From positions 310,001-374,000 of the forward strand of contig NZ_AP014548.1 in NCBI RefSeq assembly GCF_000831385.1: a DNA stretch of 64,000 nucleotides, in the 5' to 3' direction. Below are positions 2,334 through 61,807 of this stretch, piece by piece; position 1 is the stretch's first letter; each line of letters opens with the position of its first letter. The notes under the pieces are model-generated. The model did no database searches and was not told the DNA's origin. It saw only the letters and a program-made list of their open reading frames with translations. This DNA is from Nonlabens marinus S1-08 (GTDB lineage: Bacteria > Bacteroidota > Bacteroidia > Flavobacteriales > Flavobacteriaceae). The position numbers and the translations under genes were made by a program.

Positions 2334-5300
2334 ATGAAAATCAATTACTTGATAGCCGTTCTATGTTTTTTCGCTTTCGCGAAAGCGAACTCACAACAAC
2401 TTCCCGATCCACCAGAAGCTCAAAAATATTACGAGTCTCAAGAATTCCGCTTATTGGGCCCATTCCGTGGTGGGAGAAGTGCGGCGGTGACTGGAGTGCC
2501 AGGAAAACCAAATCTATTTTATTTTGGTAGTACAGGCGGTGGCGTGTGGAAAACGACAGACGGCGGCCGTACCTGGAGCAATATTTCTGATGGGTATTTT
2601 GGTGGTAGTATTGGTGCCGTGAGCGTTGCACCTAGCGATCATAATGTGATCTACGTAGGCGGTGGTGAAAAAACCGTGAGAGGAAATGTCTCAAGTGGTT
2701 ATGGTATATGGAAATCTGTAGATGCTGGTAAGTCCTGGAAGCCAGCAGGTTTGCCTAATAGTCGACATGTGCCACGCATTTCAATAGACCCCAATGATCA
2801 CAACATCGTTTATGCCGCTGTACTAGGAAACATCTATAAGGAGTCTAAAGATAGAGGTGTCTATAAATCTACAGATGGAGGTAAAAGCTGGAAAAAGACG
2901 TTATTCGCAAATGATCTCGCTGGAGCGGTAGATCTTATCATTGATCCTTCCAATCCTCGCAACTTATATGCCTCTACCTGGCGCATTCAACGTACTCCTT
3001 ATAGCTTAAGTAGTGGTGGTGACGGCAGCGCGCTATGGAAAAGTACAGATTATGGTGAGACTTGGTCTGAAATTTCTAAAAATGGAGGCTTTGCTAAGGG
3101 GACATTAGGGATTATGGGAATCACCGTTTCTCCAGTGAATTCAGACAAACTCTATGCTATTGTAGAAAACAAAGATCAAGGTGGTGTGTATCGCAGTAAT
3201 GATGCAGGGATGACTTGGACTAAAACCAATGACGACCGCAACTTGCGACAACGCGCCTGGTACTACACTCGTATTTATGCAGATACCCAGGATGAAGACG
3301 CGGTATATGTTGTCAATGTTTCCTACCACAAGTCTACAGACGGTGGTCATAATTTCTCAAGTAATAGAGCACCCCATGGCGATCACCACGATTTATGGAT
3401 CGCACCAGAAGATCCAAAACGTATGATCATGGGAGATGATGGTGGCGCACAAGTCACGTATGATGGCGGTGAAACCTGGTCAACCTACTACAATCAGCCT
3501 ACCGCACAATACTATAGAGTAACTACTGACAATTCATTCCCATATAGAATTTATGTGGCGCAGCAGGATAATGGAACGATCAGGATTCCTCATAGAACCA
3601 CTGGAGGATCGATAACCGAGACCGACTGGGAAGGAACCGCAGGTGGAGAAAGCGCTCATATTGCTGTGGATCCTAATGATAACGATATTGTGTACGGTGG
3701 TAGTTATGGGGGTTTCCTCACCCGTTACAATCATAAAACAAAATCCCAACGTGGGATTAATGTATGGCCAGACAATCCTATGGGACATGGTGCTGAGGAC
3801 ATGAAATACAGGTTCCAGTGGAATTTCCCCATCTTTATTTCTAGCCATGGTGACAATAAACTATACTCTTTCTCAAATCATGTACATGTGACCAGCAATG
3901 AAGGTCAAAGCTGGGAAACGATTTCTCCAGACCTAACCCGTAACGATCCCACTAAATTAGTTTCCAGTGGGGGACCTATCACTCAAGACAATACTAGTGT
4001 GGAGTATTATGGAACCATTTTCGCAGCTGCAGAGTCTCCACTCAATGAAGGAGAATTATGGGTAGGTAGTGATGATGGTTTAGTACACCTATCAAGAGAC
4101 AGTGGGAAAAACTGGAGTGATATAACTCCTATGGACCTTCCAGAATGGGCTCAAATCAATAGTATAGAAGCAAGTAGGTTTGACCCAGCTGTAGCTTATC
4201 TAGCAGCTACTAGGTACAAATTAGGAGACTTTGCTCCCTATTTATACAGGACTACAGATTACGGAAAATCATGGAAGAAAATAGTATCTGGCATACCTGA
4301 TGAGCATTTCACAAGAGTCGTGAGAGAAGATGAAGAGCAGAAAGGTTTGCTATATGCAGGAACTGAAACAGGGCTTTATATAAGCAATGATGATGGAGCC
4401 ACCTGGAAATCCTTCCAAATGAATTTGCCTATAGTACCTATAACAGATCTTGCTGTAAAGCAGAATAATCTAGTCATTGCAACCCAAGGACGCAGCTTAT
4501 GGATTCACGATGATTTATCTATGGTAAGACAAGGCTTGAAAGCAGCTGCTGCTTATCCGAAATCTAAAAAGGGAGCGTCCACTGAGAAAGTGATGTTGTT
4601 TCAACCTAAGGAATCTTATCGCATGGAAGGCCGCGGTGGTCGCAGTTCATTAACAGCAGGAACTAATCACCCGTCAGGTGTGCAAATCAATTATTTCCTA
4701 CCAGAATTGAAAGAGAAAGATAGTGTCGCACTACGATTCATGGATAACAGTAATAAGTTGATCAAGGAATATGCTACTTATTCTAAAAAGGACATACTAA
4801 AGCCTGAGGCAGGAGCAAACTCATTCAGCTGGGACACTAGTTATGAAGGTGCAGAAGAATTGGATGGTATGATCCTTTGGTGGGCAGATCTTTCAGGACC
4901 TAAAGCAGTTCCTGGATCCTACACTGTAGAGTTGGAAGTTAATGGAGTGAAGCAAACACAGCCTATTACTATTAAAAGAACTCCTATAAGTGAAGCTACT
5001 GAAGCGGACATGAAGTCTCAATTTGAATTTGTGACTGACGTTAATAGTACAGTAGATAAAGCACATGCTTCGATTAAAAACATTCGAGATTTCAATAAGA
5101 AATTGACAGCTTTCAAATCGGTTTATGGAGATCGTAAAGAAGATGGAATCAAGGAAATGCTTGTCCTGGCAGACAGCATGAAAACTAAGTTTAGTGAAGT
5201 GGAAAAAGCATTGTACCAAACTCAAAACCGCAGCGGTCAAGATCCTTTAAACTTCCCCATTAAATTGACGAATAAATTGGCTCACCTTAATGCGTTGGTT

Positions 5301-5477
5301 ACTATGGGTGATTTTGGGCCTACAGCACAGGATATAGCTGTTAAAAACGAATTGACAGCCCAAATTAATCAGGAGCTTAGCAAATTCAATCAGGTTCTTG
5401 ACACAGACATCAAGGAATTCAACAACAAGTTTAATGCTCTAAAACTGGACTACCTGGTTATTGAAACAGAAGATTAA
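2334..5477 (+). CDS. Secreted Asp-box (BNR/VPS10-type) beta-propeller protein
   Basis: A 1047-residue exported protein of the type usually annotated as glycosyl hydrolase or VPS10/sortilin-like in Bacteroidetes. An N-terminal signal peptide (residues 1-20, ending FAKANSQQ) is followed by at least ten Asp-boxes of the form S/T-x-D-x-G-x-T/S-W, for example STDGGRTW, SVDAGKSW, STDGGKSW, STDYGETW, SNDAGMTW, TYDGGETW, SRDSGKNW, TTDYGKSW and SNDDGATW. These mark one or two beta-propellers over roughly residues 40-740; the last 300 residues are a distinct beta-rich and helical tail. No catalytic residues can be assigned by eye, so hydrolase activity is unproven. The start is the ATG at 2334, because the signal peptide begins there; a TTG at 2244 is in frame but would bury it. 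A genome palindrome (2370-2389) encodes the signal-peptide FAFAKAN. Confidence 0.88.
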   Translation: MKINYLIAVLCFFAFAKANSQQLPDPPEAQKYYESQEFRLLGPFRGGRSAAVTGVPGKPNLFYFGSTGGGVWKTTDGGRTWSNISDGYFGGSIGAVSVAPSDHNVIYVGGGEKTVRGNVSSGYGIWKSVDAGKSWKPAGLPNSRHVPRISIDPNDHNIVYAAVLGNIYKESKDRGVYKSTDGGKSWKKTLFANDLAGAVDLIIDPSNPRNLYASTWRIQRTPYSLSSGGDGSALWKSTDYGETWSEISKNGGFAKGTLGIMGITVSPVNSDKLYAIVENKDQGGVYRSNDAGMTWTKTNDDRNLRQRAWYYTRIYADTQDEDAVYVVNVSYHKSTDGGHNFSSNRAPHGDHHDLWIAPEDPKRMIMGDDGGAQVTYDGGETWSTYYNQPTAQYYRVTTDNSFPYRIYVAQQDNGTIRIPHRTTGGSITETDWEGTAGGESAHIAVDPNDNDIVYGGSYGGFLTRYNHKTKSQRGINVWPDNPMGHGAEDMKYRFQWNFPIFISSHGDNKLYSFSNHVHVTSNEGQSWETISPDLTRNDPTKLVSSGGPITQDNTSVEYYGTIFAAAESPLNEGELWVGSDDGLVHLSRDSGKNWSDITPMDLPEWAQINSIEASRFDPAVAYLAATRYKLGDFAPYLYRTTDYGKSWKKIVSGIPDEHFTRVVREDEEQKGLLYAGTETGLYISNDDGATWKSFQMNLPIVPITDLAVKQNNLVIATQGRSLWIHDDLSMVRQGLKAAAAYPKSKKGASTEKVMLFQPKESYRMEGRGGRSSLTAGTNHPSGVQINYFLPELKEKDSVALRFMDNSNKLIKEYATYSKKDILKPEAGANSFSWDTSYEGAEELDGMILWWADLSGPKAVPGSYTVELEVNGVKQTQPITIKRTPISEATEADMKSQFEFVTDVNSTVDKAHASIKNIRDFNKKLTAFKSVYGDRKEDGIKEMLVLADSMKTKFSEVEKALYQTQNRSGQDPLNFPIKLTNKLAHLNALVTMGDFGPTAQDIAVKNELTAQINQELSKFNQVLDTDIKEFNNKFNALKLDYLVIETED
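2370..2389. repeat. Genome palindrome, copy 1 (in signal peptide)
   Basis: Exact TTCGCTTTCGCGAAAGCGAA. Read in frame as FAFAKAN in the Asp-box exoprotein signal peptide. Confidence 0.95.
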
Positions 5478-5495
5478 TTGCAACTTTGTAAATGT

Positions 5496-5531
5496 AAAAA
5501 CCGCTATTCTATAAAAGGATAGCGGTTTTTT
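5496..5531. terminator. Bidirectional terminator between convergent genes
   Basis: AAAAACCGCTAT (5496-5507) pairs with ATAGCGGTTTTT (5519-5530), with A and T tracts on both sides, between the Asp-box gene and the convergent small hypothetical gene. Confidence 0.85.
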
Positions 5532-5551
5532 AATTTATGTTGTTGTCCACA

Positions 5552-5944: not shown

Positions 5945-6064
5945 AAGGAAAAATTCTACCTAAATTTAAGAAAATAGGAGTTGAAAAAGAAATTAAAGAG
6001 GGATATATCAGAATCCAGTAAAATCCTTAAGAACTAATATATATGAGGAATTTAATGGGGGAAT

Positions 6065-6084
6065 TTCGCTTTCGCGAAAGCGAA
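6065..6084. repeat. Genome palindrome, copy 2 (intergenic)
   Basis: Exact 20-mer, 13 bases past the MarC stop. Confidence 0.95.
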
Positions 6085-6096
6085 CATCTACAACAA

Positions 6097-6714: not shown

Positions 6715-6739
6715 AGCTACAGCTCGTTTTAAAGCGGTG

Positions 6740-9297: not shown

Positions 9298-9304
9298 GTT
9301 GTTT

Positions 9305-9326
9305 TTTCGCTTTCGCGAAAGCGAAA
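9305..9326. repeat. Genome palindrome, copy 3 (intergenic)
   Basis: 22-bp perfect palindrome, 8 bases past the PBP1A stop. Confidence 0.95.
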
Positions 9327-12373: not shown

Positions 12374-12385
12374 CCTATTTATTCG

Positions 12386-12459
12386 TGACCTCGAAGGGAT
12401 TCAAACCCCCAACCCTCAGAGCCGAAATCTGATGCGCTATTCAGTTGCGCCACGAGGCC
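12386..12459 (-). tRNA. tRNA-Arg (anticodon TCG)
   Basis: On the minus strand the sequence folds as a full cloverleaf: the acceptor stem GGCCTCG pairs with CGAGGTC (one G-T), the D arm is GCGC...GCGC, the anticodon arm is TCAGA-TTTCGGC-TCTGA with anticodon TCG (reads CGA), and the T arm is GGGGG-TTTGAAT-CCCTT-like. The discriminator is A; CCA is not encoded. Its first 23 bases also encode the C-terminus of the upstream GIY-YIG gene. Confidence 0.93.
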
Positions 12460-13377: not shown

Positions 13378-15381
13378 TTAATCTACGTTATCGTGCAGGA
13401 AAGAATTGTTAGATCTTAATTGAACGTCGTTATTTTCATCAGTGGACAAGGTGGTTCTGGAACGGTCACTGTCTGAAGGATTTTTATCCAGCTCGATACC
13501 TTGACGCAGGTAGGCTGGTTTCTTTTCTATCTCATCCAGACGATGGCTGCTTTTAAACTTGAAGTTATAGGCATGCATCTTGAGCTTACGCTCTTCAGCT
13601 CGCATTTTCAATACTTCATTTATAGGTAAATCAGTCGGATCCAGGTTTTCTAGCACCTCTTTCTTTACTGTCTCTTGCTTAGGTTCTTCTAATGTAGAAA
13701 CATGAACCTCATTCACCACGGGCTTCTTAGCTGCTGGAGCTGCGTTATTTAGCTGCTTTTCTACTTCCATATAGTCGTCTAAAGAATATTTCTTGATACC
13801 TTCATTGGAAACTTCTGTAACTGGAATCACATTGATAGGATCATTTACCTCTATGTCTTCCAACTGGTAGGTGATCTTTTCTTCTTTAGGCTCTTGTGAT
13901 CTCGTTAATGGCAGATCAAAATCTAATAGAAACTGGTCTTTTTCCTCTTCTTGCTCTGGAGTGGTTGTTTTTGAGACAGGCTCAAAGAACTCTTCCTGTA
14001 CCTTAGGAACTTCAACTTGTGGCGTAACAATAAGCGTTGGCTCTTGATCTAGAACTTCTTCAAAAACTACATTTAAGTTCTTGATAAATTCCGTTGTTGG
14101 AATTATTGGGTTCTCAGATTTTGGTACGATCATCTCTTCAGGATCCTCATCTCCTAATTCATGCATAATGATGACGGGTTCTGAAGGCTCTACAACTGGT
14201 TCAGGAGTTTGTGGGGTTTCCGCTTTCGCGAAAGCGAACTCATTATCAACCTTCTGCTCCACTTCATCATCCTTATCCATGATTAAGGTTCCAGCAACAA
14301 CTCTATCGTTAGTCTCGTCCAATACCTTAGTCGCACGCTGATCTTCCTCCAAAGTATGGATGATGCGAGTTCCCTCAGTATTTGAGATTTCATTTTGCTG
14401 CTCTGCGTTAAATCCCGTGGCAATTACAGTAACGGCAATCGCGTCGCCAAGAGATTCGTCCTCGCCCACTCCCATGATGATGTTTGCGCCACCGCCTGCC
14501 TCGCTCTGGATGTGCTCGTTGATCTCTCCTATCTCATCAATTGTAATCTCCTCAGCACCTGAAACGATAAGTAGCAATACGTTTTTAGCACCGGTAATCT
14601 TGTTGTCATTCAGCAATGGACTATCTAATGCTTTCAATATTCCTTCCTGAGCACGATTAGAGCCTGTTGCTTGTGCACTACCCATGATCGCGGTACCTGA
14701 ATTTGATAAAACAGTCTTTGCGTCACGCAAGTCAATGTTTTGCGTGTAGTGGTTTGTAATAACTTCAGCAATTCCACGAGAGGCTGTAGCAAGTACCTCA
14801 TCTGCTTTACTGAAACCGGCTTTGAAACCTAAGTTTCCATATACATCACGCAGTTTATTGTTGTTAATGATTACCAGAGAGTCAACGTTCTTGCGGAATT
14901 TCTCTATTCCTTTTTGAGCCTGCTCGTTACGTACTTTTCCTTCAAAATGAAAAGGCGTAGTGACGATTCCCACAGTCAAAATTTCCATCTCGCGAGCCAC
15001 TTGAGCAATTACCGGTGCAGCACCTGTACCCGTACCACCACCCATTCCTGCGGTAATGAAAACCATTTTAGTCCTGCTATCCAGCATGGCACGTACGTCT
15101 TCAATGCTCTCCTGGGCAGCACGCTCTCCTACCTCAGGATTTGCTCCTGCACCTAGACCTTCAGTCAAGGAAACTCCTAACTGAATTTTGTTAGGAACTG
15201 GGCTATTTTCTAGGGCTTGTGAATCTGTATTACAAATCACAAAATCAACCCCTTTGATGCCCTGCTGGAACATGTGCTTGATGGCATTGCTACCACCGCC
15301 ACCTACACCTATCACCTTGATCACGTTAGATTGGTTCTTAGGGAGGTCAAATGCTATGCTGTTAAAATCGTCGTTGCTCAT
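13378..15381 (-). CDS. ftsZ: Cell division GTPase FtsZ with extended C-terminal linker
   Basis: Tubulin-like GTPase that forms the division ring. The GTPase core (about residues 18-330) has [12 protein letters not shown] and the tubulin signature GGGTGTG at 114-120. The protein is 667 residues, against about 380-400 in E. coli, because of an acidic, Pro/Glu-rich linker of about 250 residues. The end has [13 protein letters not shown], the flavobacterial version of the conserved partner-binding tail, followed by about 30 more residues. The linker carries FAFAKAE, encoded by the genome palindrome at 14221. It is the last gene of the dcw cluster, with a strong terminator at 13318-13352. Confidence 0.97.
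14221..14236. repeat. Genome palindrome, copy 4 (in ftsZ linker)
   Basis: 16-bp core CGCTTTCGCGAAAGCG; gives FAFAKAE in the variable FtsZ linker. Confidence 0.95.
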
Positions 15382-17536: not shown

Positions 17537-18891
17537 TGACTTAATTTTTCTTTAACTCGTTCCACTTCTACTCCTATATCTCCAGCTCCTAACATCAAAA
17601 CAATTCGGTTGTCCATTTCTTCAATAAACTCGGCGAGATCTGTTTTTTGCACTACTGTACTCACCACTGGTGCATTTTCTTGCTCCCCAATGCGCTGGCA
17701 TAGCACAGCAGAGTCCACGCCTTCCATAGGCTCTTCTCTGGCTGCATATATATCTAAGATGCCCACGCAGTCAAATTGACTTAAGCTCCTTGCAAAGTCT
17801 TCCATAAAATCGTTAGTTCTAGAATACAAATGCGGTTGAAAAATTACCGTGTATTTCTCACCTGGATACATTTCTGCCACCGCATGGTACACAGCATCGA
17901 TTTCAGTTGGGTGGTGGGCATAATCATCAATAAGCACTCTTTCTAAAGTATCAATACGATAACTGAATCGTCTTTCTACACCCTGAAAACTAGCTAGTGC
18001 TGTTCGTAACTTTTCAATAGCAACACCATATTGATGTGCTATGGAAAGTGCGAGTAAGGCATTAGCTAAATTGTGACGTCCTGGAAGTTTGAGATAAAAG
18101 TTTTTTACTATGGAATCTGGCGTATGAAAATCAAAGTGATACGCACCATCAACGATGGTCAAATGCTCTGCATGAAAATCGCCATTCTCCACACCTACCG
18201 TGGCGGCTTCCCACTTTATAGCAGTATTGACAAAAAGCTTGTCTTTAGAAACTAGTCCAGCAAATTCTTTAAAAGATTCTTCAAAGGCTTCAGCACTTCC
18301 ATAAATATCTAGATGGTCTGGATCTATTGCTGTAATTCCAGCATAATCAGGCTGCAATTGTAAAAAAGATCTATCGAACTCATCTGCCTCCACGACCATA
18401 ACGTCTGTTCCAGAATTCAGATAGTTGGTCTGATATCCTTCTAGAATCCCACCTAAAAAGGCGGTCATTTTTACCTCACTATTATACAACAGGTGAGCAA
18501 GAATTGCACTAGTTGTTGTCTTACCGTGGGTACCGGCAATAGCTAGACAGGTCATTGTTTTAGAAATCTGACCTAGCAATTGCGCACGTTTAGTGATGGG
18601 AATTCCGCTTTCGCGAAAGCGAACCATCTCACCAAATCCTTGCGGCACAGCGGGTGTATAAACCACCTGAGCGGTGTCTGGATTCTTAAATTCTGCTGGA
18701 ATAACCTCGTAATTGTCATCGTAATGAATAGTAATCCCTTCTGTTTCCAGCTTTTTAGACAAGGATGTAATCACGCGATCGTAGCCTGAAACGGTTTTAC
18801 CCTGGGCATGCAAATATCTTGCTAGCGCACTCATACCTATACCGCCGATGCCGACGAAATAAAAATGGGTTATGTCTTTCAAATCACGCAT
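17533..18891 (-). CDS. murC: UDP-N-acetylmuramate--L-alanine ligase MurC
   Basis: ATP-dependent cytoplasmic ligase adding L-Ala to UDP-MurNAc, the first step of the peptide stem. The start [15 protein letters not shown] is the UDP-binding Rossmann loop, [11 protein letters not shown] is the ATP P-loop, [10 protein letters not shown] and [11 protein letters not shown] are the conserved Mur ligase and ligase C-terminal motifs. The length of 452 residues is normal. RFRESG near residue 90 is encoded by a genome palindrome (18606-18621) in a surface-loop region. It overlaps murG by 8 bases and ftsQ by 4. Confidence 0.97.
18606..18621. repeat. Genome palindrome, copy 5 (in murC)
   Basis: 16-bp core; read in the alternative frame as RFRESG. 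Confidence 0.95.
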
Positions 18892-21165: not shown

Positions 21166-22527
21166 TTATAATCCTCTTACGGCGTCTTTAAATTGGCGGC
21201 CTCTGTCTTCATAATTTTTAAATAAATCAAAACTGGCACAAGCTGGACTTAGTAATACATTGTCCCCAGCATCCGCTAGCTTATAAGCTACGCGTACTGC
21301 ATCTTCCATTGAATTTGTTTCTACCATTTGATCCACACACCCACTAAATGCATTTACAATTTTAGAGTTGTCTGTTCCCAAACACACAATAGCTTTTACA
21401 TGCTTATTAACTAGACCAAAGAGCTGGGAATAATCATTCCCTTTATCCACACCACCTACAATCCAGACAGTAGGATGCTCCATGCTATCAAGTGCATAGA
21501 AAGTGGCATTGACATTTGTGGCTTTAGAATCATTGATGTACTGCACTTTGTTAATCTTAAGCACCTGTTCTAGGCGGTGTTCTACACCTTGAAAGGATTG
21601 CATGCTCTGCCGGATCGTTTCCTTACGAATTTTTAAAAGTTTAGCGGTGGTTGCTGCTGCCATAGCATTGGCAGTGTTGTGTTGTCCCTTGAGGGAAAGT
21701 TGTTCAATCGGCATAGTGAATGGAGTTTGGTCAATCGCGACCTTTATTGTGTTGTTTGAAAGTGATGCACCGTATTCCAGTTCTCTTGTCATCGAGAAAG
21801 GAACTAGTGTAGATTTTGGTTTGTTTTTTTCTATTGCGCTGGTAATCGCCTCATCGTCTGCATTATAAACTAGGAAGTCATTTTCATCCTGATTCATAGC
21901 GATGCGCATTTTAGAGTCTATGTAGTTTTCAAATTTGTAATCGTAGCGGTCCAGGTGATCTGGAGTCACATTAAGCAATACAGCAATGTGAGGTTTGAAG
22001 TTTAAGATCCCGTCTAGCTGAAAACTACTTACTTCCAGCAATCGGTGTTCGGCAGGTCCTTCTACCAGTTGCTGGGCAAAGCTTTTACCTATGTTTCCTC
22101 CCATGGTATAATCCAATTCGGCTACCTGGAAAACGTGTCCTAATAAACTGGTGGTTGTGGTTTTACCATTGCTACCGGTAACAGCAACGATGGTCTCCGC
22201 TGTATGCGAGGCAGCAAATTCGATTTCCGAAATAACGGGTATACCTGCTTCAGTTACCTGTACAATAAGCGGTGCCGTATCAGGAATGCCTGGACTTTTC
22301 ACAATCAGGCTTGCCTTAAGAATTCGGTCAATGGAATGAGTTCCTGTCTCGTAGGGAATGTTTTGGGTTTGTAACGCTTTCGCGAAAGCGGAATCCAACT
22401 CATCTCTATTGCTCAAAAACACCTCATAACCACGGTCAGATGCCAGCAAGGCTGCACCAACGCCACTGATACCACCACCGAGGACGACCACGTTTGAAAA
22501 ATTATATGTGAATTTTTCCTGGCTCAT
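21166..22527 (-). CDS. murD: UDP-N-acetylmuramoylalanine--D-glutamate ligase MurD
   Basis: Cytoplasmic ligase adding D-Glu to UDP-MurNAc-L-Ala. VVLGGGISGVGAALLA is the UDP-binding loop, [14 protein letters not shown] the P-loop, and INDSKATNVNATFYAL and LLSPACASFDLFKNYEDRG are the MurD-specific C-terminal motifs. The length of 453 residues is normal. SAFAKAL near residue 47 comes from a genome palindrome at 22375-22390. Its start codon shares one base with the mraY stop. Confidence 0.97.
   Translation of the reverse strand: MSQEKFTYNFSNVVVLGGGISGVGAALLASDRGYEVFLSNRDELDSAFAKALQTQNIPYETGTHSIDRILKASLIVKSPGIPDTAPLIVQVTEAGIPVISEIEFAASHTAETIVAVTGSNGKTTTTSLLGHVFQVAELDYTMGGNIGKSFAQQLVEGPAEHRLLEVSSFQLDGILNFKPHIAVLLNVTPDHLDRYDYKFENYIDSKMRIAMNQDENDFLVYNADDEAITSAIEKNKPKSTLVPFSMTRELEYGASLSNNTIKVAIDQTPFTMPIEQLSLKGQHNTANAMAAATTAKLLKIRKETIRQSMQSFQGVEHRLEQVLKINKVQYINDSKATNVNATFYALDSMEHPTVWIVGGVDKGNDYSQLFGLVNKHVKAIVCLGTDNSKIVNAFSGCVDQMVETNSMEDAVRVAYKLADAGDNVLLSPACASFDLFKNYEDRGRQFKDAVRGL
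22375..22390. repeat. Genome palindrome, copy 6 (in murD)
   Basis: 16-bp core; read as SAFAKAL. Confidence 0.95.
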
Positions 22528-25227: not shown

Positions 25228-27203
25228 GATAGAGTAAGAATAACTTGATGTGACTTATTGATTTCAGTCCCAGGCTTGATGCTTTGGCTGGATACTTTCC
25301 CTGAACCTACAATCTTGACCTTTGCCCCCATGTTTTCAATGATGGTAATGGCATCCATAACTTCCATACCTCGCAAGTCGGGTAGGTTTTTAGTGGCTTT
25401 TCTAGCTTTTGTATAATAGACCTCCTTGTTTTTGATAATTTCAGAAGGAACTTCTTTGGGTAGATTGATCTCGTCTGCACGTGGGTTACTAGCGTATATT
25501 TTTTGAGCAATCTTTTTAAAAACTGGTCCCGCCACGATGTTGCCATAGTATCCTTTAGCGGTATTAGGCTTGTGGATTACGACAATACAACTGTACTTAG
25601 GCTTATCTGCTGGGAAATAACCTGCGAAAGAAGCGATGTAGTTTCCTGCACTCTTCCAATATTCCGTTTGACAAGTACCTGTTTTTCCTGCCATACTAAA
25701 ATTCTCACTGTACAAATTTTGTGCGGTGCCACGACGCACCACATTTTCCATCATCACTTTTACCTTGTCAATAGTTTCTTGACTGCAAATGGATGGGTTG
25801 ATGATCTGGCGATCGTATTTTTCTATTAATTTATTTTTTGAACGAACCTCTTTGATCAATCGTGGCTTCACCATCACGCCATTATTTGCAACGGCATTAT
25901 AAAATGTCAATGTTTGTAAGGGTGTCATTTGAACCCCATAACCGAATCCCATCCACGGTAAGGAAAGACCGCTCCAGTTTGCATCGTCTGGATGTGGTAT
26001 CAGTGGAGCTCCTTCTCCTATAATAGGAAGCCCCAATTTATTTTGAATGTTCATGCTGTAAAGTCGATCCACATAGCGCTCTGGATCGTCAGCATAATTT
26101 TCTTGTACCATTTGGACAAGTGCAGTGTTGGAACTAAGCTCAAAGGCTTTGGCAACGCTTATTTTGCCATAACCTCCATATTTTGAATCTCGTACATTCC
26201 TTCCGTAATAAGATATTTTCCCGTTTTGAGTATCGAATACTGTGCTCGTATCTATCACCTTATCCTCTAATGCTGCAATCACACTCATTAACTTGAAGGT
26301 GGAACCCGGCTCGTGAGACTCCCACAAGGCATAGTTGCGCTTTTCAAAGTATTTACCATCACTGGAGCGGCCCAGATTAGACAAGGCTTTGATCTCTCCA
26401 GTTGCGACTTCCATCACCACAGCAGTACCATGGTCTGCTTCAAAATATTCTAATTGTTCTAACAACGCATGATGCGCTACATCTTGCATGTTCACATCTA
26501 TAGTAGTGTACACATCGCGCCCATCTCTAGGCTCAATCTCATTGACATTATTTATAGGGCGCCATTCATTACCTGAAATCTTTTGTTCTAATCTAGAACC
26601 GTCATCACCTTTCAAAAATGCACGGTAAGCGCCTTCCAGACCAACACTTGGTTTACCCGGCTCGTCATACCCAACCAGTCGTTCGGCCATTTTACCTAGC
26701 GGGTATTCTCTTTCAACATGAGGCTCAACAATCAAACCTCCTCTGTAAGCTCCACGCTTGAATAATGGAAATTGCTTGATTTCTTGTAAATCAGTAAAGC
26801 TTATATTTTTGGCAATCTCTAAATACCTTGAATTGTTCGTCCTTGCCTTTTGAAACTTTTTAAGCAATTCTGATTTGGGGACGTTCAGCTTTCGCGAAAG
26901 CGAACTTGCCAGAGGTTCAATTTCTTTATTGAAATCATCTTGACCAGGAGCCACTGCATCAAAGCGTATGTCATATTTAGTTATCGACGTCGCGAGCAAC
27001 TGACCGTTAGCATCGTAAAGGTTTCCACGATTCGCATCTACAATTTGATTGCGGAAGATGCGCTGCTCTGCTTTGGCTCGATACTCTTTTCCTTCCCAAA
27101 ACTGGATATGCACGATCTGCGCCACGATAGCGATCGCCACCACGGCAAAGAAAATAGACACGCCATAGATGCGGTACAAGATGTTCTTATCTGTGGTTGC
27201 CAT
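25224..27203 (-). CDS. ftsI: Septal transpeptidase FtsI (PBP3) with C-terminal PASTA domain
   Basis: A 659-residue class B penicillin-binding protein that cross-links septal peptidoglycan. One membrane anchor (residues 12-34), a dimerisation domain, then transpeptidase motifs STFK with Ser301, SSN in FELSSNTALVQM, and KTGT in AGKTGTCQTEYW. A single PASTA domain (LPDLRGMEVMDAITIIENMG onward) ends the protein, as in SpoVD-like and Bacteroidetes FtsI. The genome palindrome at 26887-26902 encodes SLSRKL (101-106) in a non-catalytic region. It overlaps ftsL by one base. Confidence 0.95.
   Translation of the reverse strand: MATTDKNILYRIYGVSIFFAVVAIAIVAQIVHIQFWEGKEYRAKAEQRIFRNQIVDANRGNLYDANGQLLATSITKYDIRFDAVAPGQDDFNKEIEPLASSLSRKLNVPKSELLKKFQKARTNNSRYLEIAKNISFTDLQEIKQFPLFKRGAYRGGLIVEPHVEREYPLGKMAERLVGYDEPGKPSVGLEGAYRAFLKGDDGSRLEQKISGNEWRPINNVNEIEPRDGRDVYTTIDVNMQDVAHHALLEQLEYFEADHGTAVVMEVATGEIKALSNLGRSSDGKYFEKRNYALWESHEPGSTFKLMSVIAALEDKVIDTSTVFDTQNGKISYYGRNVRDSKYGGYGKISVAKAFELSSNTALVQMVQENYADDPERYVDRLYSMNIQNKLGLPIIGEGAPLIPHPDDANWSGLSLPWMGFGYGVQMTPLQTLTFYNAVANNGVMVKPRLIKEVRSKNKLIEKYDRQIINPSICSQETIDKVKVMMENVVRRGTAQNLYSENFSMAGKTGTCQTEYWKSAGNYIASFAGYFPADKPKYSCIVVIHKPNTAKGYYGNIVAGPVFKKIAQKIYASNPRADEINLPKEVPSEIIKNKEVYYTKARKATKNLPDLRGMEVMDAITIIENMGAKVKIVGSGKVSSQSIKPGTEINKSHQVILTLS
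26887..26902. repeat. Genome palindrome, copy 7 (in ftsI)
   Basis: Core with one left-end change (AGCTTTCGCGAAAGCG); read in the third frame as SLSRKL. Confidence 0.9.
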
Positions 27204-29074: not shown

Positions 29075-29096
29075 TTTCGCTTTCGCGAAAGCGAAA
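29075..29096. repeat. Genome palindrome, copy 8 (intergenic, mraZ/hydrolase divergent region)
   Basis: 22-bp perfect palindrome between the two divergent promoters. Confidence 0.95.
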
Positions 29097-31230: not shown

Positions 31231-32208
31231 TTAAGATCTGGGTTTATATCTGGATTTATTAAAAATATCAGTGGCTGAGGTACGTATGATCTCATCCACC
31301 GCTGCATTGTTTGTTGCTGCATAACTAGACACGATCTGGTAGCCTATGTATTGAGCGATGCCTCCTGGCGTATCTTGATCGATCTCTAAATAAAATTTTG
31401 AAAAAGGTGCCGGCAGTAAAAATCGTGAAATCAATTGTTGGTCTGATTTGTAAAGCAATTCTTTATCTACAAAATACCGGTACACGTACTCCTCATTTTC
31501 TTGTGCGAACTGCATCTTGTTTTCTGGATACCCCATCAGCTGTGCAGGCGTGGATGCTGGTGCAAATAACTGCTGCACATAATGAAGCTTGCCGTAATAA
31601 ATCATCTGGTCTAAAAAACCGCGACTGGATACGGGTGGTACAAAAAGCTTTGCATAGGCTAGAGCTACGTCAGCTGCTAAGCGGTCTCTATCCAGTGTGA
31701 CTGATTTGTACTTACTAATTCCTTTATATAATTGATGGTCTGGCCCTAAGTAATTGTCAATACCTATTAATAAAAATTGAGGAGTTGGCACCACTTTCAA
31801 ATCATCATCCACTTCACTCAAAACGGTAATAACAGGCACAGGCTCAAATTCTGGAAAATAATACTCCACATGTTTCATCACCAGTTCTACTTCTTTCTGG
31901 ATGTTTTGATAGTCAAAATCAGCAGATGCCACGGCCTTTTCCAGCACGTTTTGAATAGTGTCTTGCCCAGCAATTTTAGCCTTCCAAATACTATCAGAGA
32001 CCACTGTGGGAAAGAATTGAGGAAACTGCTCTTTTAACCTAGGTAAGTCACTGAGTTGTGCGTTTGCAAATTCTTCATGAAAACGCACGAGTTCCACCTG
32101 CAACGGTATCGCTTGAATTTCCTGTTCTAACTTAGGCTCCTGGGTGCAGGAGATTATCGCTTTCGCGAAAGCGAACACTAATAAAATTGTTGTTATCTTG
32201 TTATACAT
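31231..32208 (-). CDS. gldB: Gliding motility lipoprotein GldB
   Basis: A 325-residue lipoprotein required for gliding and type IX secretion-linked functions in flavobacteria. The start is the ATG at 32208, because it begins the lipoprotein signal (lipobox ending IISC, Cys21); an upstream in-frame start at 32265 adds 19 non-signal residues. The body matches GldB (FPQFFPTVVSDSIWKAKIAGQDTIQ, ADVALAYAKLFVPPVSSRG). A genome palindrome (32158-32173) encodes FAFAKA within the hydrophobic part of the signal peptide, placing a Lys there. It is divergent from nadE, 51 bases away. Confidence 0.92.
   Translation of the reverse strand: MYNKITTILLVFAFAKAIISCTQEPKLEQEIQAIPLQVELVRFHEEFANAQLSDLPRLKEQFPQFFPTVVSDSIWKAKIAGQDTIQNVLEKAVASADFDYQNIQKEVELVMKHVEYYFPEFEPVPVITVLSEVDDDLKVVPTPQFLLIGIDNYLGPDHQLYKGISKYKSVTLDRDRLAADVALAYAKLFVPPVSSRGFLDQMIYYGKLHYVQQLFAPASTPAQLMGYPENKMQFAQENEEYVYRYFVDKELLYKSDQQLISRFLLPAPFSKFYLEIDQDTPGGIAQYIGYQIVSSYAATNNAAVDEIIRTSATDIFNKSRYKPRS
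32158..32173. repeat. Genome palindrome, copy 9 (in gldB signal peptide)
   Basis: 16-bp core; read as FAFAKAI just before the lipobox. Confidence 0.95.
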
Positions 32209-35821: not shown

Positions 35822-35851
35822 TTGAGTTCGCTTTCGCGAAAGCGAACTCAA
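35822..35851. repeat. Genome palindrome, copy 10 (intergenic, longest)
   Basis: Perfect over 30 bp: the 20-mer is flanked by TTGAG and CTCAA. It lies upstream of dnaG and after the small barrel gene's far side. Confidence 0.95.
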
Positions 35852-39376: not shown

Positions 39377-39396
39377 TTCGCTTTCGCGAAAGCGAA
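39377..39396. repeat. Genome palindrome, copy 11 (intergenic)
   Basis: Exact 20-mer upstream of the SnoaL-like gene. Confidence 0.95.
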
Positions 39397-42142: not shown

Positions 42143-42166
42143 AGTTCGCTTTCGCGAAAGCGAACT
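42143..42166. repeat. Genome palindrome, copy 12 (intergenic)
   Basis: 24-bp perfect palindrome just past the mscS terminator. Confidence 0.95.
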
Positions 42167-45135: not shown

Positions 45136-46085
45136 TGAATTCGAACATCAAGGTAGCACTAGCTCAAATCGCACCCGTATGGCTGGATCGTGAAGCGACT
45201 CTTGAAAAGATATTGCAAAGCCTAGAGCAGGCAAAAAATGAAAATGCAGAATTAGTAGTTTTCGGTGAAGCCTTGTTACCTGGTTACCCGTTTTGGTTAG
45301 CGCTTACAGATGGTGCTGCTTGGAATAAAAAGGTGGTGAAAGAATTACACCGGCATTATTGCTTAAATGCCGTGGACATAGAAGCAGGAGATCTTGAGGT
45401 GGTTTGCGCTTTCGCGAAAGCGAACTCCATAGCCATCTATCTAGGAATCATAGAGCGCCCCAGCGATCGAGGTGGTCATAGCTTGTACGCCAGCCTGGTT
45501 TACATTGACCAAAATGGCTTGATTCAAAGTGTGCATCGCAAACTACAACCTACTTATGATGAACGACTTACTTGGTCACCAGGCGATGGAAACGGATTAG
45601 TAACTCATCACCTTAAAGGCTTTACAGTAAGTGGTCTCAATTGCTGGGAAAACTGGATGTCGTTACCTAGAGCTGCTATGTATGCTCAAGGTACTAATTT
45701 GCATGTGGCAGCCTGGCCAGGTAGCGATTACAATACTAAAGATATTACCAGATTCATAGCTAGAGAAGGACGCACCTTTGTTTTGTCTGTTTCTAGCCTT
45801 ATGTTGAAAGAGCATTTCCCAAAAGGCACACCACATTTAGAAGAACTGCTAGAAAATGCACCTGCAGTTTTAGCAAATGGTGGCAGTTGTATAGCTGGCC
45901 CAGATGGCGAGTGGATTATCGAGCCGCAAATAGGGAAAGAAGAGCTGATCACCGCAACTTTAGATTTAAATAGAGTATTTGAAGAACGTCAGAATTTTGA
46001 TCCAGCTGGACATTATTCCAGGCCTGATGTGACTCAATTAAACGTCAACAGAAAGCGACAGTCGACTGTTAAATTTGAAGATTAG
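45135..46085 (+). CDS. Nitrilase-superfamily carbon-nitrogen hydrolase
   Basis: A 316-residue cytoplasmic hydrolase with the full catalytic triad Glu45 (VVFGEALLPGYP), Lys136 (VHRKLQPTY) and Cys170 (GLNCWENW). The CWENW context matches the nitrilase branch (nitrile to acid and ammonia) better than amidases, but the substrate is unknown. CAFAKAN (91-97) is encoded by a genome palindrome at 45407-45422, between the Glu and Lys motifs. It is coupled by one-base overlap with the prenyltransferase. Confidence 0.9.
   Translation: MNSNIKVALAQIAPVWLDREATLEKILQSLEQAKNENAELVVFGEALLPGYPFWLALTDGAAWNKKVVKELHRHYCLNAVDIEAGDLEVVCAFAKANSIAIYLGIIERPSDRGGHSLYASLVYIDQNGLIQSVHRKLQPTYDERLTWSPGDGNGLVTHHLKGFTVSGLNCWENWMSLPRAAMYAQGTNLHVAAWPGSDYNTKDITRFIAREGRTFVLSVSSLMLKEHFPKGTPHLEELLENAPAVLANGGSCIAGPDGEWIIEPQIGKEELITATLDLNRVFEERQNFDPAGHYSRPDVTQLNVNRKRQSTVKFED
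45407..45422. repeat. Genome palindrome, copy 13 (in nitrilase)
   Basis: 16-bp core; read as CAFAKAN. Confidence 0.95.
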
Positions 46086-47291: not shown

Positions 47292-48683
47292 TTGAATACC
47301 AAATACATAGATCTTATTGATCAAACCTATCATTTTCCGTCAGAGGAATTTGATCTCGTGGACCGACAATTACAATTTCATGGCATAGACCTTATGTCAT
47401 TGGTTCAGGAATATGGTAGCCCATTGAAGTTCACCTACTTACCTAAGATTTCAGAAAACATCAATCGTGCAAAAGGTTGGTTTGAAACCGCTTTCGCGAA
47501 AGCGGACTACCAAGCCACCTATAGGTATTGCTATTGTACCAAGAGCTCTCATTTCAAGCATGTGCTGGATGAAGCGCTCAAAAACGATATACATATCGAG
47601 ACCAGTAGTGCTTTTGACATCAACATTGTAAAGAGCCTCAAAGCAAGCGGTAAAATCACTAAGGATACTTATGTGGTGTGTAATGGTTTCAAGCGCGATT
47701 TGTATATAGAAAACATTGCTGATCTGATCAACAGCGGTCAACACAATTGCATTCCCGTCATTGATAATCTAGAGGAGTTGCCGCTTTTACAACAGGCAAC
47801 AGAGAAAAAATTCAAAGTTGGGATTCGGATTGCCAGTGAAGAAGAACCTAAGTTTGAATTCTATACCAGTAGATTAGGTATAGGTTATAAAAATATCCAA
47901 GCCTTTTACAAAAACCAGATTGAAGGTAACGATCAAGTGGAACTTAAGATGTTGCACTTTTTCATCAACACCGGTATACGCGACACCGCTTATTACTGGA
48001 ACGAATTACACAAATGCCTGAAGGTGTACATTCAGCTCAAAAAGATGTGCCCTTCATTAGATAGCTTAAACATAGGTGGTGGCTTTCCTATTAAGAACAG
48101 CCTCGCTTATGAGTTTGACTATCAATACATGGTGGAAGAAATCGTAAGCCAAATCAAATTAGTTTGTGAAGACTCTGGAGTTGAGGTTCCTCATTTGTTT
48201 ACGGAATTTGGTTCTTTTACAGTGGGAGAAAGCGGCGGAGCGATTTATAAAATCTTGCACCAAAAACAACAAAACGATCGTGAAAAATGGAGCATGATCA
48301 ACAGCTCATTTATCACTACACTGCCCGATTCTTGGGCTATAAGCAAGCGTTTCATATTACTCCCACTCAATAGGTGGCATGATGAATACGAGCGTGTTTT
48401 GTTGGGCGGATTGACCTGTGATAGCGACGACTATTACAACAGCGAGCAAAACGTAAATGCTATTTACTTGCCTAAATACCATAAAGACAAACCGTTGTAC
48501 ATAGGTTTCTTTAATACAGGAGCTTATCAAGAAAGTATAGGAGGTTATGGCGGGCTTCAACATTGTTTGATCCCTAATCCTAAACACGTCTTGATCGAGA
48601 GAGATGAAAATGGCGAAATACAAACGAGGATTTTCAGAGAGCAACAAACATCAGAGCAGATGCTGAATATATTAGGCTATTAA
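47292..48683 (+). CDS. speA: Arginine decarboxylase (fold III, PLP-dependent)
   Basis: A 463-residue PLP enzyme of the alanine-racemase-like fold that should convert arginine to agmatine. YCTKSSHFKHV carries the PLP Lys, LNIGGGFPI the phosphate loop, and LTCDSDDYY the catalytic Cys-Asp region. A TTG start at 47292 is preferred since NTKYIDLIDQTYHFP is, from memory, the usual start of flavobacterial homologues and no upstream ATG exists. TAFAKAD is encoded by a genome palindrome at 47489. The following agmatinase gene supports arginine, over diaminopimelate or carboxynorspermidine, as the substrate. Confidence 0.82.
   Translation: MNTKYIDLIDQTYHFPSEEFDLVDRQLQFHGIDLMSLVQEYGSPLKFTYLPKISENINRAKGWFETAFAKADYQATYRYCYCTKSSHFKHVLDEALKNDIHIETSSAFDINIVKSLKASGKITKDTYVVCNGFKRDLYIENIADLINSGQHNCIPVIDNLEELPLLQQATEKKFKVGIRIASEEEPKFEFYTSRLGIGYKNIQAFYKNQIEGNDQVELKMLHFFINTGIRDTAYYWNELHKCLKVYIQLKKMCPSLDSLNIGGGFPIKNSLAYEFDYQYMVEEIVSQIKLVCEDSGVEVPHLFTEFGSFTVGESGGAIYKILHQKQQNDREKWSMINSSFITTLPDSWAISKRFILLPLNRWHDEYERVLLGGLTCDSDDYYNSEQNVNAIYLPKYHKDKPLYIGFFNTGAYQESIGGYGGLQHCLIPNPKHVLIERDENGEIQTRIFREQQTSEQMLNILGY
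47489..47504. repeat. Genome palindrome, copy 14 (in speA)
   Basis: 16-bp core; read as TAFAKAD. Confidence 0.95.
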
Positions 48684-48734: not shown

Positions 48735-49673
48735 ATGAGTACTACTAACTACGCTGGCATAGAAGATCAATATGCTGGTTTGGACAATGCATCCATAGTT
48801 CTAATTCCAGTTCCTTATGATGGAACGAGCACGTGGCAAAAAGGAGCCGATAAGGGTCCTGAAGCTTTTCTAGACGCTAGTCGCAATATGGAATTGTACG
48901 ATATAGAAACAGATACTGAAGTGTATCAACACGGCGTGTATCTTGCAGACCCTGTGGCAGAGCGTGGCTCACCAGAAGCTATGGTGGATGCGGTACACGC
49001 AACGACAAAGAAATATATTAAGAAGAATAAATTTGTAACCCTTTTTGGAGGAGAACATTCCATTTCTATAGGAAGTATACGAGCCTTCAATGAGATGTTT
49101 GAAAACTTGAGTGTCTTACAAATCGACGCGCATGCAGACTTGAGAAAAGAATACGATGGCAGCACTTGCAATCATGCATGTGCGGTTTATGAAGCCAGCC
49201 AAACGACCAATCTCGTTCAGGTAGGAATACGCAGTATGGACAGCGTGGAATTAGGCATCAACGATGAGGAAAAAGTATTCTACGCTCATGAGATGGCACA
49301 AGACGACTACTGGGCCGAAAAGGCTACAGAAGCGCTGACTGAAAACGTATTCATTACCATCGACCTTGATGGTTTTGACCCTTCTATTTGTCCCTCGACG
49401 GGCACTCCAGAGCCTGGCGGCTTGTTTTGGTACGAGACCTTAGACTTTTTAAGAGGCGTTTTTGAAGAGAAAAACGTGGTAGGGTTTGACATCGTTGAAT
49501 TATGCCCTAATCCAAATGAAAAGTCATCCGACTTCCTTGCAGCTAAGTTGTACTACAAAATGCTGAGCTACAAATTCAAGGACATTGCCCTTGAAGGAGA
49601 AGAAGGATATGATTCTGATAAAGCTTTCGCGAAAGCGGGATTAAAGAAAATGAAAAACATCAACGAAGACTAG
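48735..49673 (+). CDS. speB: Agmatinase (ureohydrolase family)
   Basis: A 312-residue dimanganese enzyme that cleaves agmatine to putrescine and urea. The metal ligands are visible: GGEHS with His108, DAHAD (131-135) and DLDGFDPS (Asp210, Asp212). The length is normal. It follows arginine decarboxylase by 51 bases. The C-terminal AFAKAG is encoded by the genome palindrome at 49622-49637, just before the stop, where added residues are tolerated. Confidence 0.93.
   Translation: MSTTNYAGIEDQYAGLDNASIVLIPVPYDGTSTWQKGADKGPEAFLDASRNMELYDIETDTEVYQHGVYLADPVAERGSPEAMVDAVHATTKKYIKKNKFVTLFGGEHSISIGSIRAFNEMFENLSVLQIDAHADLRKEYDGSTCNHACAVYEASQTTNLVQVGIRSMDSVELGINDEEKVFYAHEMAQDDYWAEKATEALTENVFITIDLDGFDPSICPSTGTPEPGGLFWYETLDFLRGVFEEKNVVGFDIVELCPNPNEKSSDFLAAKLYYKMLSYKFKDIALEGEEGYDSDKAFAKAGLKKMKNINED
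49622..49637. repeat. Genome palindrome, copy 15 (speB 3' end)
   Basis: Core with one left-end change; read as KAFAKAG near the C-terminus. Confidence 0.9.
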
Positions 49674-51114: not shown

Positions 51115-51135
51115 TTCGCTTTCGCGAAGGCGGAA
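51115..51135. repeat. Genome palindrome, copy 16 (intergenic, decayed)
   Basis: The left half is exact; the right half reads CGAAGGCGGAA, breaking the symmetry at two positions. Confidence 0.8.
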
Positions 51136-53658: not shown

Positions 53659-53681
53659 GGTTTTATTTTTAAAGTTGGATC

Positions 53682-53789: not shown

Positions 53790-55187
53790 CTATTTATATC
53801 TCGTGTTGGGCATCCATCGAGATTGAACCCATAATTCATAGGTTAGAAAAGCTATGACCATCGAATATTCTATTCCAATCCACCACATATTTTCTTGAAA
53901 CAAGGCGTTCGAGTATGCTGAATAACTCACGAAAACCAAGCCACTCCAAATAACCATGTAACGGTATTTTGTGAAAATTGAGAATAATAAAGGTATGGTC
54001 AAATACCAAGGATGCACGGTGGTGGAGAACAACAGGTAAATTGTAAAAGAGAACAGAATGCTGGTTAGTAGGATTTCTGGAAATTGATTTTTGCGAATTA
54101 CAGCAAGCAATAGAATAGACATCAATGTAATTACAGGCAAAATTTTACCTACCGTGCCTATAATGTTATAACCAGTGATCTGGAACCCTATCTCTCGAAT
54201 GATATAATATACACTTGCATTAAATTCAAATGTTCCAAACCAAAGCCCTACAGAAGACCCATAGTTTTCAATCAAATCTGCTGAAATAAATGGAGCGAAT
54301 CCGAGTGAAACTGTAGCAGCTAAAATGCCGAAGTATAAAAACCACCTTTTCCATTTCATACCTTTCAACAACAACGGCAAAATCATGACTGGCAATAGCT
54401 TTAATAAGATGCTAAAACCTATAAAAACAGGACTCTTCAAACGCTGGTAGGTGATAAAATAATACACTCCCATAAGCATCAAACATGCCATCACTCCTTC
54501 CCAGTGCAAGTTTGCAGTCAACTCAATAATTACAAATGGATTCAAAAAGTAAAGCAAGATCAAATAATCAGGTTTGCCTATCAAGCGCAGCAACCTGAGC
54601 CCATAGAAAAACACCACTACATCTGCAGCAATAATGAACACCCGCATCCATACGACCGTCATCAATAAATTATCACCTCCTAAGTAAGCCGCAGCTGCAA
54701 AGAAAAGTTGATTGAGTGGTGGGTAGTTCGTATAATGACCGCTAGAAAGTTCTCCCATGGAGGAATGCAGCAGCTGTGCATTTGGCACAACCTCAACGCC
54801 AGCAGCTATTAAATCATCTGGTAGATATATGTAAGGATTCAGACCGTTGAGCAGCAAATGACCGTCCCAGATAAACCGAAAGAAATCTTGTGATAATGTG
54901 GGCGTGTTCCATAAAAAAACCAGTCGCAATACGATACCCGCAATTAACCAAACCAAAATATGAGGAGGCCGCTGCCACAAACGTCCTAGCTTAAAAGAAA
55001 ATAGCTGAATTTCTCGGGATTGAGCCGTTTTGAAAATCCAGTAAAATCCACCGAAAAACACAAATAGTGTGGTGTAGCAGATGAGACTGTCGAGAAACTG
55101 CTTTCGCGGAAGCGAACTAAAGACAGCACACTCTAAAAAACTGAGGATCAGCAAGATTCCAAAACCGTTTTGCAACCGCGCTTTCAT
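53790..55187 (-). CDS. Polytopic GT-C type glycosyltransferase (GT87-like)
   Basis: A 465-residue inner-membrane protein with about eleven hydrophobic segments. FRFIWDGHLLLNGLNPYIYLPDD in the first large loop is the pattern of GT-C mannosyltransferase-like enzymes (D-G and NPY), which use polyprenyl-phosphate sugars as donors. It follows the cellulose-synthase-like gene with no gap, and a polyprenyl-phosphate sugar synthase-like gene heads the cluster, giving a plausible donor supply. SLPRKQ comes from a decayed genome palindrome at 55099-55116. Confidence 0.78.
   Translation of the reverse strand: MKARLQNGFGILLILSFLECAVFSSLPRKQFLDSLICYTTLFVFFGGFYWIFKTAQSREIQLFSFKLGRLWQRPPHILVWLIAGIVLRLVFLWNTPTLSQDFFRFIWDGHLLLNGLNPYIYLPDDLIAAGVEVVPNAQLLHSSMGELSSGHYTNYPPLNQLFFAAAAYLGGDNLLMTVVWMRVFIIAADVVVFFYGLRLLRLIGKPDYLILLYFLNPFVIIELTANLHWEGVMACLMLMGVYYFITYQRLKSPVFIGFSILLKLLPVMILPLLLKGMKWKRWFLYFGILAATVSLGFAPFISADLIENYGSSVGLWFGTFEFNASVYYIIREIGFQITGYNIIGTVGKILPVITLMSILLLAVIRKNQFPEILLTSILFSFTIYLLFSTTVHPWYLTIPLLFSIFTKYRYMVIWSGLVFVSYSAYSNALFQENMWWIGIEYSMVIAFLTYELWVQSRWMPNTRYK
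55099..55116. repeat. Genome palindrome, copy 17 (in GT-C gene, decayed)
   Basis: TGCTTTCGCGGAAGCGAA, with changes in the left end and centre-right; read as SLPRKQ. Confidence 0.75.
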
Positions 55188-57526: not shown

Positions 57527-57552
57527 GAGTTCGCTTTCGCGAAAGCGAACTC
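57527..57552. repeat. Genome palindrome, copy 18 (intergenic)
   Basis: 26-bp perfect palindrome one base past the TonB-receptor-like stop. Confidence 0.95.
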
Positions 57553-57553
57553 T

Positions 57554-60322: not shown

Positions 60323-60367
60323 AAATGGTTTGGTTGGTCAAAAAAGGTCATCAAGAACTATTCCTTT

Positions 60368-61669: not shown

Positions 61670-61688
61670 AATCCTGCTTTTGCAGCTG

Positions 61689-61696
61689 CAAAGGTA
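61689..61696 (-). promoter_or_regulatory. Promoter -7 box of der (TACCTTTG)
   Basis: TANNTTTG match on the minus strand, 19 bases before the ATG at 61669. Confidence 0.65.
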
Positions 61697-61781
61697 CTTT
61701 TTTTAAGCGCGGTAGTTGAAGGAATTTATGGCGGAATAGCAATAGATTTCGCAAGCTGTTTTATGTAGAGATCTGGAAGAT

Positions 61782-61807
61782 TATTTCGCTTTCGCGAAAG
61801 CGAAATA
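61782..61807. repeat. Genome palindrome, copy 19 (intergenic)
   Basis: 26-bp perfect palindrome in the spacer between the polyprenyl synthase stop and der. Confidence 0.95.

Follow-up and report, generated by a model that had tools for sequence, protein, structure and literature searches.

Why should a long palindrome recur at regular distances along a bacterial chromosome, within genes as well as between them? The question is raised by a stretch of 64,000 nucleotides of Nonlabens marinus S1-08 (contig NZ_AP014548.1, positions 310,001 to 374,000; hereafter the window), in which the 16-mer palindrome CGCTTTCGCGAAAGCG is found at 19 places with zero to two mismatches, while a search allowing up to three mismatches is expected to return 0.07. 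On the evidence of genome comparisons we tentatively interpret this palindrome as a clade-specific signal that marks self DNA for homologous exchange; its likeliest identity is a DNA-uptake sequence (DUS) that would not need a type IV pilus. The site, its spacing, its conservation and its distribution are described below, after which this interpretation is weighed against others.

Abundance and spacing of the sites

The 19 cores in the window comprise 15 exact copies, three with one mismatch and one with two, in agreement with the number counted in an initial annotation of the same DNA. That annotation described a 20-bp palindrome at every site; the full 20-mer occurs exactly at nine of the 19 (0 in 100 shuffles), and four of the cores are imperfect. 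The gaps between palindromes range from 1,495 to 4,913 bp, with a mean of 3,301 bp, a standard deviation (SD) of 959 bp and a coefficient of variation (CV) of 0.28, values that the initial annotation had given correctly to within a few bases. In 20,000 simulations that scattered the sites at random between the same ends, the CV averaged 0.93 and never fell below 0.39, so that none was as even.

The abundance extends to the whole genome. On its one contig of 2,915,920 bp the 14-mer core is present 728 times as an exact match and 857 times when up to two mismatches are allowed, against 0 and 18 matches, respectively, of the reversed control. Spacing was analyzed over 850 kb, in two arcs of 450 and 400 kb that hold 136 and 102 sites, a density of one per 3.3–3.8 kb. 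The CV was 0.585 in both arcs (random mean 0.99; lowest simulated values 0.79 and 0.75), and gaps shorter than 1 kb numbered 8 and 2 when 35 and 23 were expected. The pair correlation of the sites was 0.09, 0.21, 0.33 and 0.51 in the first four 500-bp bins and about 1 thereafter, with no sign of a periodic lattice beyond the exclusion zone, and neighbouring gap lengths were uncorrelated in series. What looks regular is therefore a soft exclusion zone that extends over about 2 kb, and not a lattice. The "strikingly even" spacing noted at first is thus genuine in that random placement is rejected at both scales and overstated as a general description: 64-kb windows within the 850 kb have CVs of 0.28–0.91, the one studied here lies at the even extreme, and gaps of up to 16 kb occur. 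Neither exponential spacing nor counts at compositional expectation were found in this genome. Among related genomes, even spacing was also seen in the stretches examined of a Dokdonia genome (G250, CV 0.55) and of the congeners G004 (0.59) and G017 (0.36); in G234, from a third genus and with 45 sites in 240 kb, it is weak (CV 0.80, where random placement averages 0.97 and reaches as low as 0.62).

Three gaps in the arcs exceed 15 kb. One spans 16 kb of the ribosomal-protein region (G000:C1:228303-244244, G000 being the genome under study), where L2, L4, SecY and enolase were found and no site lies within two mismatches. The stretch does hold four degenerate matches with three or four mismatches; at one of these places congener G004 has a better site. 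The second gap contains genes for a Wzt-type ABC transporter, an asparagine synthase and an acetyltransferase, and looks like a surface-polysaccharide cluster. Most of the third, 16 kb long, is occupied by a single open frame of 4,039 amino acids with a DUF7507 domain (L160:7792-19911, approximately C1:1467792-1479911).

Anatomy of the site

In the 450-kb arc the inner positions of the core are 95–100% invariant and the outermost pair 91%; TT and AA often lengthen the core to the 20-mer. Once full sites are set aside, neither half-sites nor inner words show enrichment in the two arcs, and consequently the whole dyad is the unit. This holds for TCGCGA and for TTCGCGAA, which outside full sites was counted once against 5.7 and once against 4.6 expected in the two arcs, and four times against 3.0 in Dokdonia. 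The same counts disfavour methylation at TCGCGA as the driver. Dokdonia has a few near-complete pieces above expectation, such as TTCGCGAAAGC (3 versus 0.1), that we take for eroded sites.

The site is embedded in flanks of about 20 bp with a marked strand asymmetry. The 5′ side is C-poor and G/T-rich and the 3′ side is its mirror image, A/C-rich, at genic and intergenic sites alike; the G+T share of bases 3–15 from the core is 0.678, compared with 0.500 at random places (SD 0.009). Dokdonia sites and phage copies show the same asymmetry, and G234 a weaker one. In all eight sites folded, a single strand can form a hairpin of 8 bp or more. The suggestion that the site serves a structure-specific enzyme finds this much in its favour and nothing beyond it.

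Intergenic DNA makes up 12.7% of the bases of the 450-kb arc and holds 64 of its 136 sites, the other 72 being genic. The 63 intergenic sites that could be typed fall between tandem genes of the two kinds (24 and 18), divergent genes (14) and convergent genes (7), in proportion to the available bases. Genic sites are distributed over the three frames as 42, 16 and 14, and the preferred frame reads AFAKA.

Conservation and turnover

Within the genus the sites hold their positions. When the genome was compared with that of G004 (75.9% identity, 157 kb aligned), 41 of 42 fully aligned sites were kept and one fell in a gap; the reciprocal comparison also gave 41 of 42. Each of the 16 positions of the core had an identity of 0.95–1.00 (mean 0.99), compared with about 0.74 beyond the core. 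Under a looser positional rule that included poorly aligned places, 44 of 49 sites had a counterpart within 400 bp. The span has 63 sites in all; the remaining 14 are within or next to blocks missing from the G004 stretch at that place.

Between genera the picture is different. A set of 151 sites contained in open reading frames yielded 37 inter-genus alignments, of which 26 reached a protein identity of 40% or more. Only six of these 26 retain the site within 15 bp. Among the 20 that do not, 15 are ungapped at the place and five are gapped, although these rows are not all independent. Since most of the empty places are ungapped, the sites mostly arise by substitution; as far as tested they are retained within the genus, and they turn over between genera.

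Taxonomic distribution and lateral copies

The palindrome is confined, as a genome-wide feature, to a small part of the family. Each of 22 sampled congeners has 288–857 exact cores, and among 36 more distant relatives exact cores occur in one only, with six on a single contig. In a survey of 329 genomes from 237 genera of the family (up to two mismatches), strong enrichment was detected in three genera: Nonlabens, the genus of G234 (732 matches versus 48 reversed controls) and Dokdonia (G250, 1,281 versus 21). A weaker excess over the reversed control was observed elsewhere, for example in G360 (92 versus 16), G188 (86 versus 20), G086 (69 versus 8) and G120 (41 versus 5). Named Nonlabens stretches align with the N. 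marinus genome at about 69–77% (strain BBFL7 at 73%) and those of Dokdonia at 67–68%. A scan of 84,980 species gave at least 111 stretches; among the 80 listed, 67 belong to Nonlabens, Dokdonia or strain BBFL7, and 13 other taxa have one copy each, when an arithmetic estimate that assumes even base composition predicts about 60 chance matches in that many bases. In a GyrB tree of 59 chosen rows the three motif genera and g163 (represented by G188) form one clade (88/82), within which g225, g209 and g163 group at 100/95. No dominant long palindrome that might constitute another dialect was found in about 40 kb from each of seven other genera.

Exact cores were then counted in 30 family genomes with higher or mixed counts. 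Between 1 and 19 were present in 25 of them, with about 0.01 expected in each. Some are clustered: all 16 of G120, a genome without others, lie within 78 kb (C3:32331-110016), all six of G352 within 69 kb (C1:1247135-1316336), and four of the six of G117 within 42 kb (C1:870032-912393). Others are not, such as the four of G360, which are on four contigs, and the four dispersed copies of G317; G095 has 17. Paired spacings of 933 and 2,446 bp between copies repeat across several genera. In G188 these pairs lie within a cluster that includes a resistance-nodulation-division (RND) efflux pump and a multicopper oxidase (L332, C15:20001-40000), and an Aquimarina contig (L047, 68.5% identity) has sites at the same two places. 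We read the clustered copies in other genera as laterally shared DNA that once resided in the motif clade. The matches of G188, from the sister genus g163 (9 exact, three of them on contig C15, 20 one-off and 57 two-off), may in part be relics of a lost system; since the paired spacings recur in other genera, lateral transfer explains some of them. The G188 cluster is described only as laterally shared, and not as a conjugative element, because a 41-kb block of the N. marinus genome with its homologue also has housekeeping genes.

A separate instance of sharing was noted between G033:C18:80001-180000 (L207-L211) and G000:C1:1300001-1313522, where segments are 92–93% identical across two genera and apparently represent a recently shared element. 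The G033 stretch is preceded, at a distance of about 4 kb, by a gene for a 616-amino acid ParB (C18:76088); the N. marinus genome has another at C1:1269093.

Sites in phages

The exact 16-mer was found in 41 stretches of IMG/VR. Twenty-four phage records, all picked for carrying a site, were rescanned, eight of them whole. Proteins of several phage contigs match PHROG capsid, portal, terminase, tape-measure and baseplate families, and related contigs have site positions in common. An integrase or a Mu-type transposase is encoded in four of the eight motif-bearing records scanned whole; three of the eight are Mu-like. Even with three mismatches allowed, the 70.7 kb of the isolated Nonlabens phages P12024S and P12024L (L313 and L314) contain no site; as close relatives the two phages count as one independent case. 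Their annotation names ERF and YqaJ recombination proteins and no integrase among 59 and 56 features. These observations suggest that DNA resident in the chromosome acquires the mark.

Interpretation of the palindrome

The initial annotation regarded the palindrome as a signal read along the chromosome, and this view is well supported by the clade restriction, the positional conservation, the sharp 16–18-bp footprint and the exclusion spacing. We infer that it is maintained by selection or conversion. If it is a signal for the exchange of self DNA, a reader with dyad symmetry, located on the cell surface or in the periplasm, would bind double-stranded DNA with at least one copy, and the site-bearing fragments would enter via ComEC and then recombine. 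Copies would accumulate until each recombining fragment of about 2–4 kb has one; the exclusion zone would follow because further copies in the same fragment add no gain. Saturation at one site per fragment is the published logic of DUS and of uptake signal sequences (USS) (PMC2397512, PMC7811141), and USS have been described as arising by substitution (PMC1626085). Exclusion, saturation at one site per few kb, substitution origin, positional stability and clade restriction all agree with what is described for uptake sequences in Neisseria and Haemophilus, and most features fit the uptake option raised at the outset. The competence essentials reported for Riemerella, another flavobacterium, are ComEC, DprA, ComF and RecA plus four proteins unlike known machinery (PMC8459023), and R. 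columbina favours its own DNA in transformation (PMC7965970). Given that machinery and that preference, a pilus-independent uptake system with self-preference is plausible in this family. The R. columbina study, in the k-mer counts it presents, considered words of up to 10 bp and listed A/T-rich ones (PMC7965970).

Several observations weigh against uptake as the function. No reader was found among the candidates checked, namely ParB, ComEC, AddAB-type proteins, the pilus ATPase and the products of the comEC neighbourhood, in which no receptor was recognizable by inspection, profile scans not having been applied to it. ComEC is encoded in nine of nine motif genomes and in 29 of 30 overall; it is also present in 20 of 21 comparison genomes and therefore does not track the motif. 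A type IV pilus/secretion ATPase exceeds the cut-off in two of the nine motif genomes and falls below it in seven, and on this ground the type IV pilus was discarded as reader; of seven Nonlabens genomes tested, two encode a full type II/IV secretion ATPase (G004:C4:336408-337520 and G007:C8:126205-127296). The scarcity of the ATPase, together with the fact that an uptake effect requires an assay, is why the palindrome was not classed as a DUS. Uptake sequences are not palindromic in the published description (PMC1939737), whereas this site is a perfect palindrome, and uptake alone does not explain its strand-asymmetric 20-bp flanks. The phage copies may be a further departure from known uptake sequences: the eight records scanned whole, picked for having a site, hold 41 sites (up to two mismatches) in 261 kb, unlike acquired regions of Neisseria, which are reported to carry few DUS (PMC2397512). 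Finally, five of the 49 positions lack a counterpart in G004 under the looser rule, and of four aligned sites in congener G017 two are kept and two are in gaps.

The site could instead bind a chromosome-organizing or segregation protein, such as a nucleoid-associated factor, an SMC loader or an anchor, with one dimer every few kb, resident prophages included. We consider this rather unlikely, although a perfect 16-bp dyad would suit a dimeric protein of the helix-turn-helix type, and the near-invariant core, the sharp footprint and the exclusion spacing are in keeping with it, as is the occurrence of sites in some phage records and in neither of the two isolated phages. The segregation option of the initial annotation finds no support in the ParB repertoire. 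Each motif genome has one ParB of about 300 amino acids, the only one in eight of the nine; the 616-amino acid ParB of G000 is an addition seen in that genome alone, and ParBs of 599–616 amino acids occur in five genera without a genome-wide motif. A Noc-like ParB paralogue was ruled out as reader since the clade has no specific extra ParB, and no clear canonical parS site was seen in the genome arcs examined. Gaps of 16 kb are tolerated, a structural need is less obvious in the three Mu-like phage records, the flank asymmetry would not be expected of simple duplex binding, and the failure to find a reader among the candidates counts here too. Less probable again is a Chi-like role, in which an enzyme of the AddAB/RecBCD type would be switched at the site, sparing self DNA for repair and leaving foreign DNA to degradation. 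RecA prefers G/T-rich strands, and a palindrome could work from both directions, the G/T-rich strand on each side being the 3′ tail offered to RecA. The measured G/T-richness 5′ of the site agrees with such a role, and PF12705, the nuclease domain of AddA/AddB-type proteins, was over cut-off in 30 of 30 genomes, which also means that these genes do not track the motif. The density is near that of E. coli Chi, one per 5 kb (PMC8022716), and the site-free phages P12024S/L with their ERF and YqaJ proteins recall the Chi avoidance reported in phages that have their own recombinase and a RecBCD inhibitor (PMC3784561). Nonetheless, a palindrome cannot be polar, while E. coli-type Chi is an 8-nt one-stranded word sought by its polarity (PMC8022716), and the Mu-like phages, three of the eight motif-bearing records, should not need Chi.

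Two further explanations are very improbable. The palindrome resembles HIP1, thought of here as the product of an orphan methyltransferase and mismatch repair, in being highly iterated, genic and intergenic, with deviations commonest at the outermost bases (PMC4390886). However, HIP1 is described as an 8-bp word with enriched inner sequences (PMC4390886); a short word driven by methylation or mismatch repair is disfavoured here by the half-site counts. The least credible alternative is a mobile repeat of the repetitive extragenic palindromic (REP) kind or a transcription terminator. The copies are palindromic, hairpin-forming and intergenic-enriched; against this, more than half of those in the 450-kb arc are genic, and the intergenic ones show no bias towards any type of gene arrangement. 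A T-rich 5′ flank and an A-rich 3′ flank are the opposite of a terminator, the prevalence of ungapped empty places and exclusion instead of clustering argue against a mobile repeat, and no Rfam family besides a tRNA was matched in the window, so that terminator, RNA element and mobile repeat were all rejected.

A further possibility, which we regard as less likely than not, is a new bidirectional self-DNA mark, consisting of the 16-bp dyad with mirror-image G/T-rich flanks (about 50–60 bp in total), read by a recombination or import machine unlike pilus/ComP or RecBCD-Chi, confined to one flavobacterial clade and picked up by chromosome-resident DNA, including temperate phages.

We know of no other sequence-specific uptake signal in Bacteroidota. 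If the palindrome is one, it would be, so far as we are aware, the first in this phylum, and palindromic. It would also occur in a group for which self-preference in transformation is described, with no proven motif in that account (PMC7965970). If its role is Chi-like or architectural, it gives the search for a chromosome-wide reader a sharply defined target. The palindrome may also mark phages and gene clusters that have lived in this clade. A search of open-access full text for the 11-mer TTTCGCGAAAG, which left subscription papers and preprints outside its scope, gave a sole match, in a work on enzyme structure.

Sites in the window

The positions of the 19 sites are collected in Table 1. 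The initial annotation had divided them into nine intergenic and ten genic; both classes are indeed present, and the gene calls place 12 between genes and seven within them, several adjoining uncertain start codons. Apart from a tRNA-Arg (anticodon tcg) at 12385-12459, no RNA gene was detected in the window.

Table 1. Copies of the palindrome core in the window (window coordinates; genes with their strand in parentheses).
Site	Core	Position	Location
1	exact	2372..2387	just within gene called 2286-5477 (+), start uncertain
2	exact	6067..6082	intergenic
3	exact	9308..9323	intergenic
4	exact	14221..14236	genic (13378-15381 -)
5	exact	18606..18621	genic (17533-18891 -)
6	exact	22375..22390	genic (21166-22527 -)
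7	one mismatch	26887..26902	genic (25224-27203 -)
8	exact	29078..29093	intergenic
9	exact	32158..32173	intergenic or at gene start
10	exact	35829..35844	intergenic
11	exact	39379..39394	intergenic
12	exact	42147..42162	intergenic
13	exact	45407..45422	genic (45135-46085 +)
14	exact	47489..47504	intergenic or at gene start
15	one mismatch	49622..49637	genic (48735-49673 +)
16	one mismatch	51117..51132	intergenic
17	two mismatches	55099..55114	intergenic or at gene start
18	exact	57532..57547	intergenic
19	exact	61787..61802	intergenic

Comparison with known systems

The sites of Noc/ParB, SlmA and MatP are also palindromes scattered over the chromosome, and dimeric proteins read them. Those sets comprise tens of sites with an origin-to-terminus bias; here there are 857 matches (control 18) and no clade-specific extra ParB. 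REP elements are mostly extragenic and clustered and are associated with a RAYT transposase, whereas 72 of 136 copies of this palindrome are genic and their spacing shows exclusion. HIP1 of cyanobacteria, which is denser than the palindrome studied here, is likewise a highly iterated palindrome in and outside genes whose function is unsettled. It differs in being 8 bp long, in its enriched inner words and in its tie to orphan methyltransferases (PMC4390886), while here the whole 16-mer alone is enriched. The likeness to Chi of RecBCD/AddAB lies in the density, the logic of self-marking, the G/T-rich strand and the existence of phages with or without the site; E. coli Chi is 8 nt, one-stranded and polarized (PMC8022716), and the present site is 16 bp, palindromic and intergenic-enriched. 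With DUS and USS it shares a copy number in the hundreds, distances of about one to a few kb between copies, a fairly even distribution, presence in genes and between them, and origin by substitution (PMC2397512, PMC7811141, PMC1939737, PMC1626085). DUS and USS are shorter and directional, whereas this site is a 16-bp perfect palindrome with G/T-rich and then A/C-rich flanks, of lower density (one per 3.3–3.8 kb), in Bacteroidota that mostly lack the type IV pilus ATPase.

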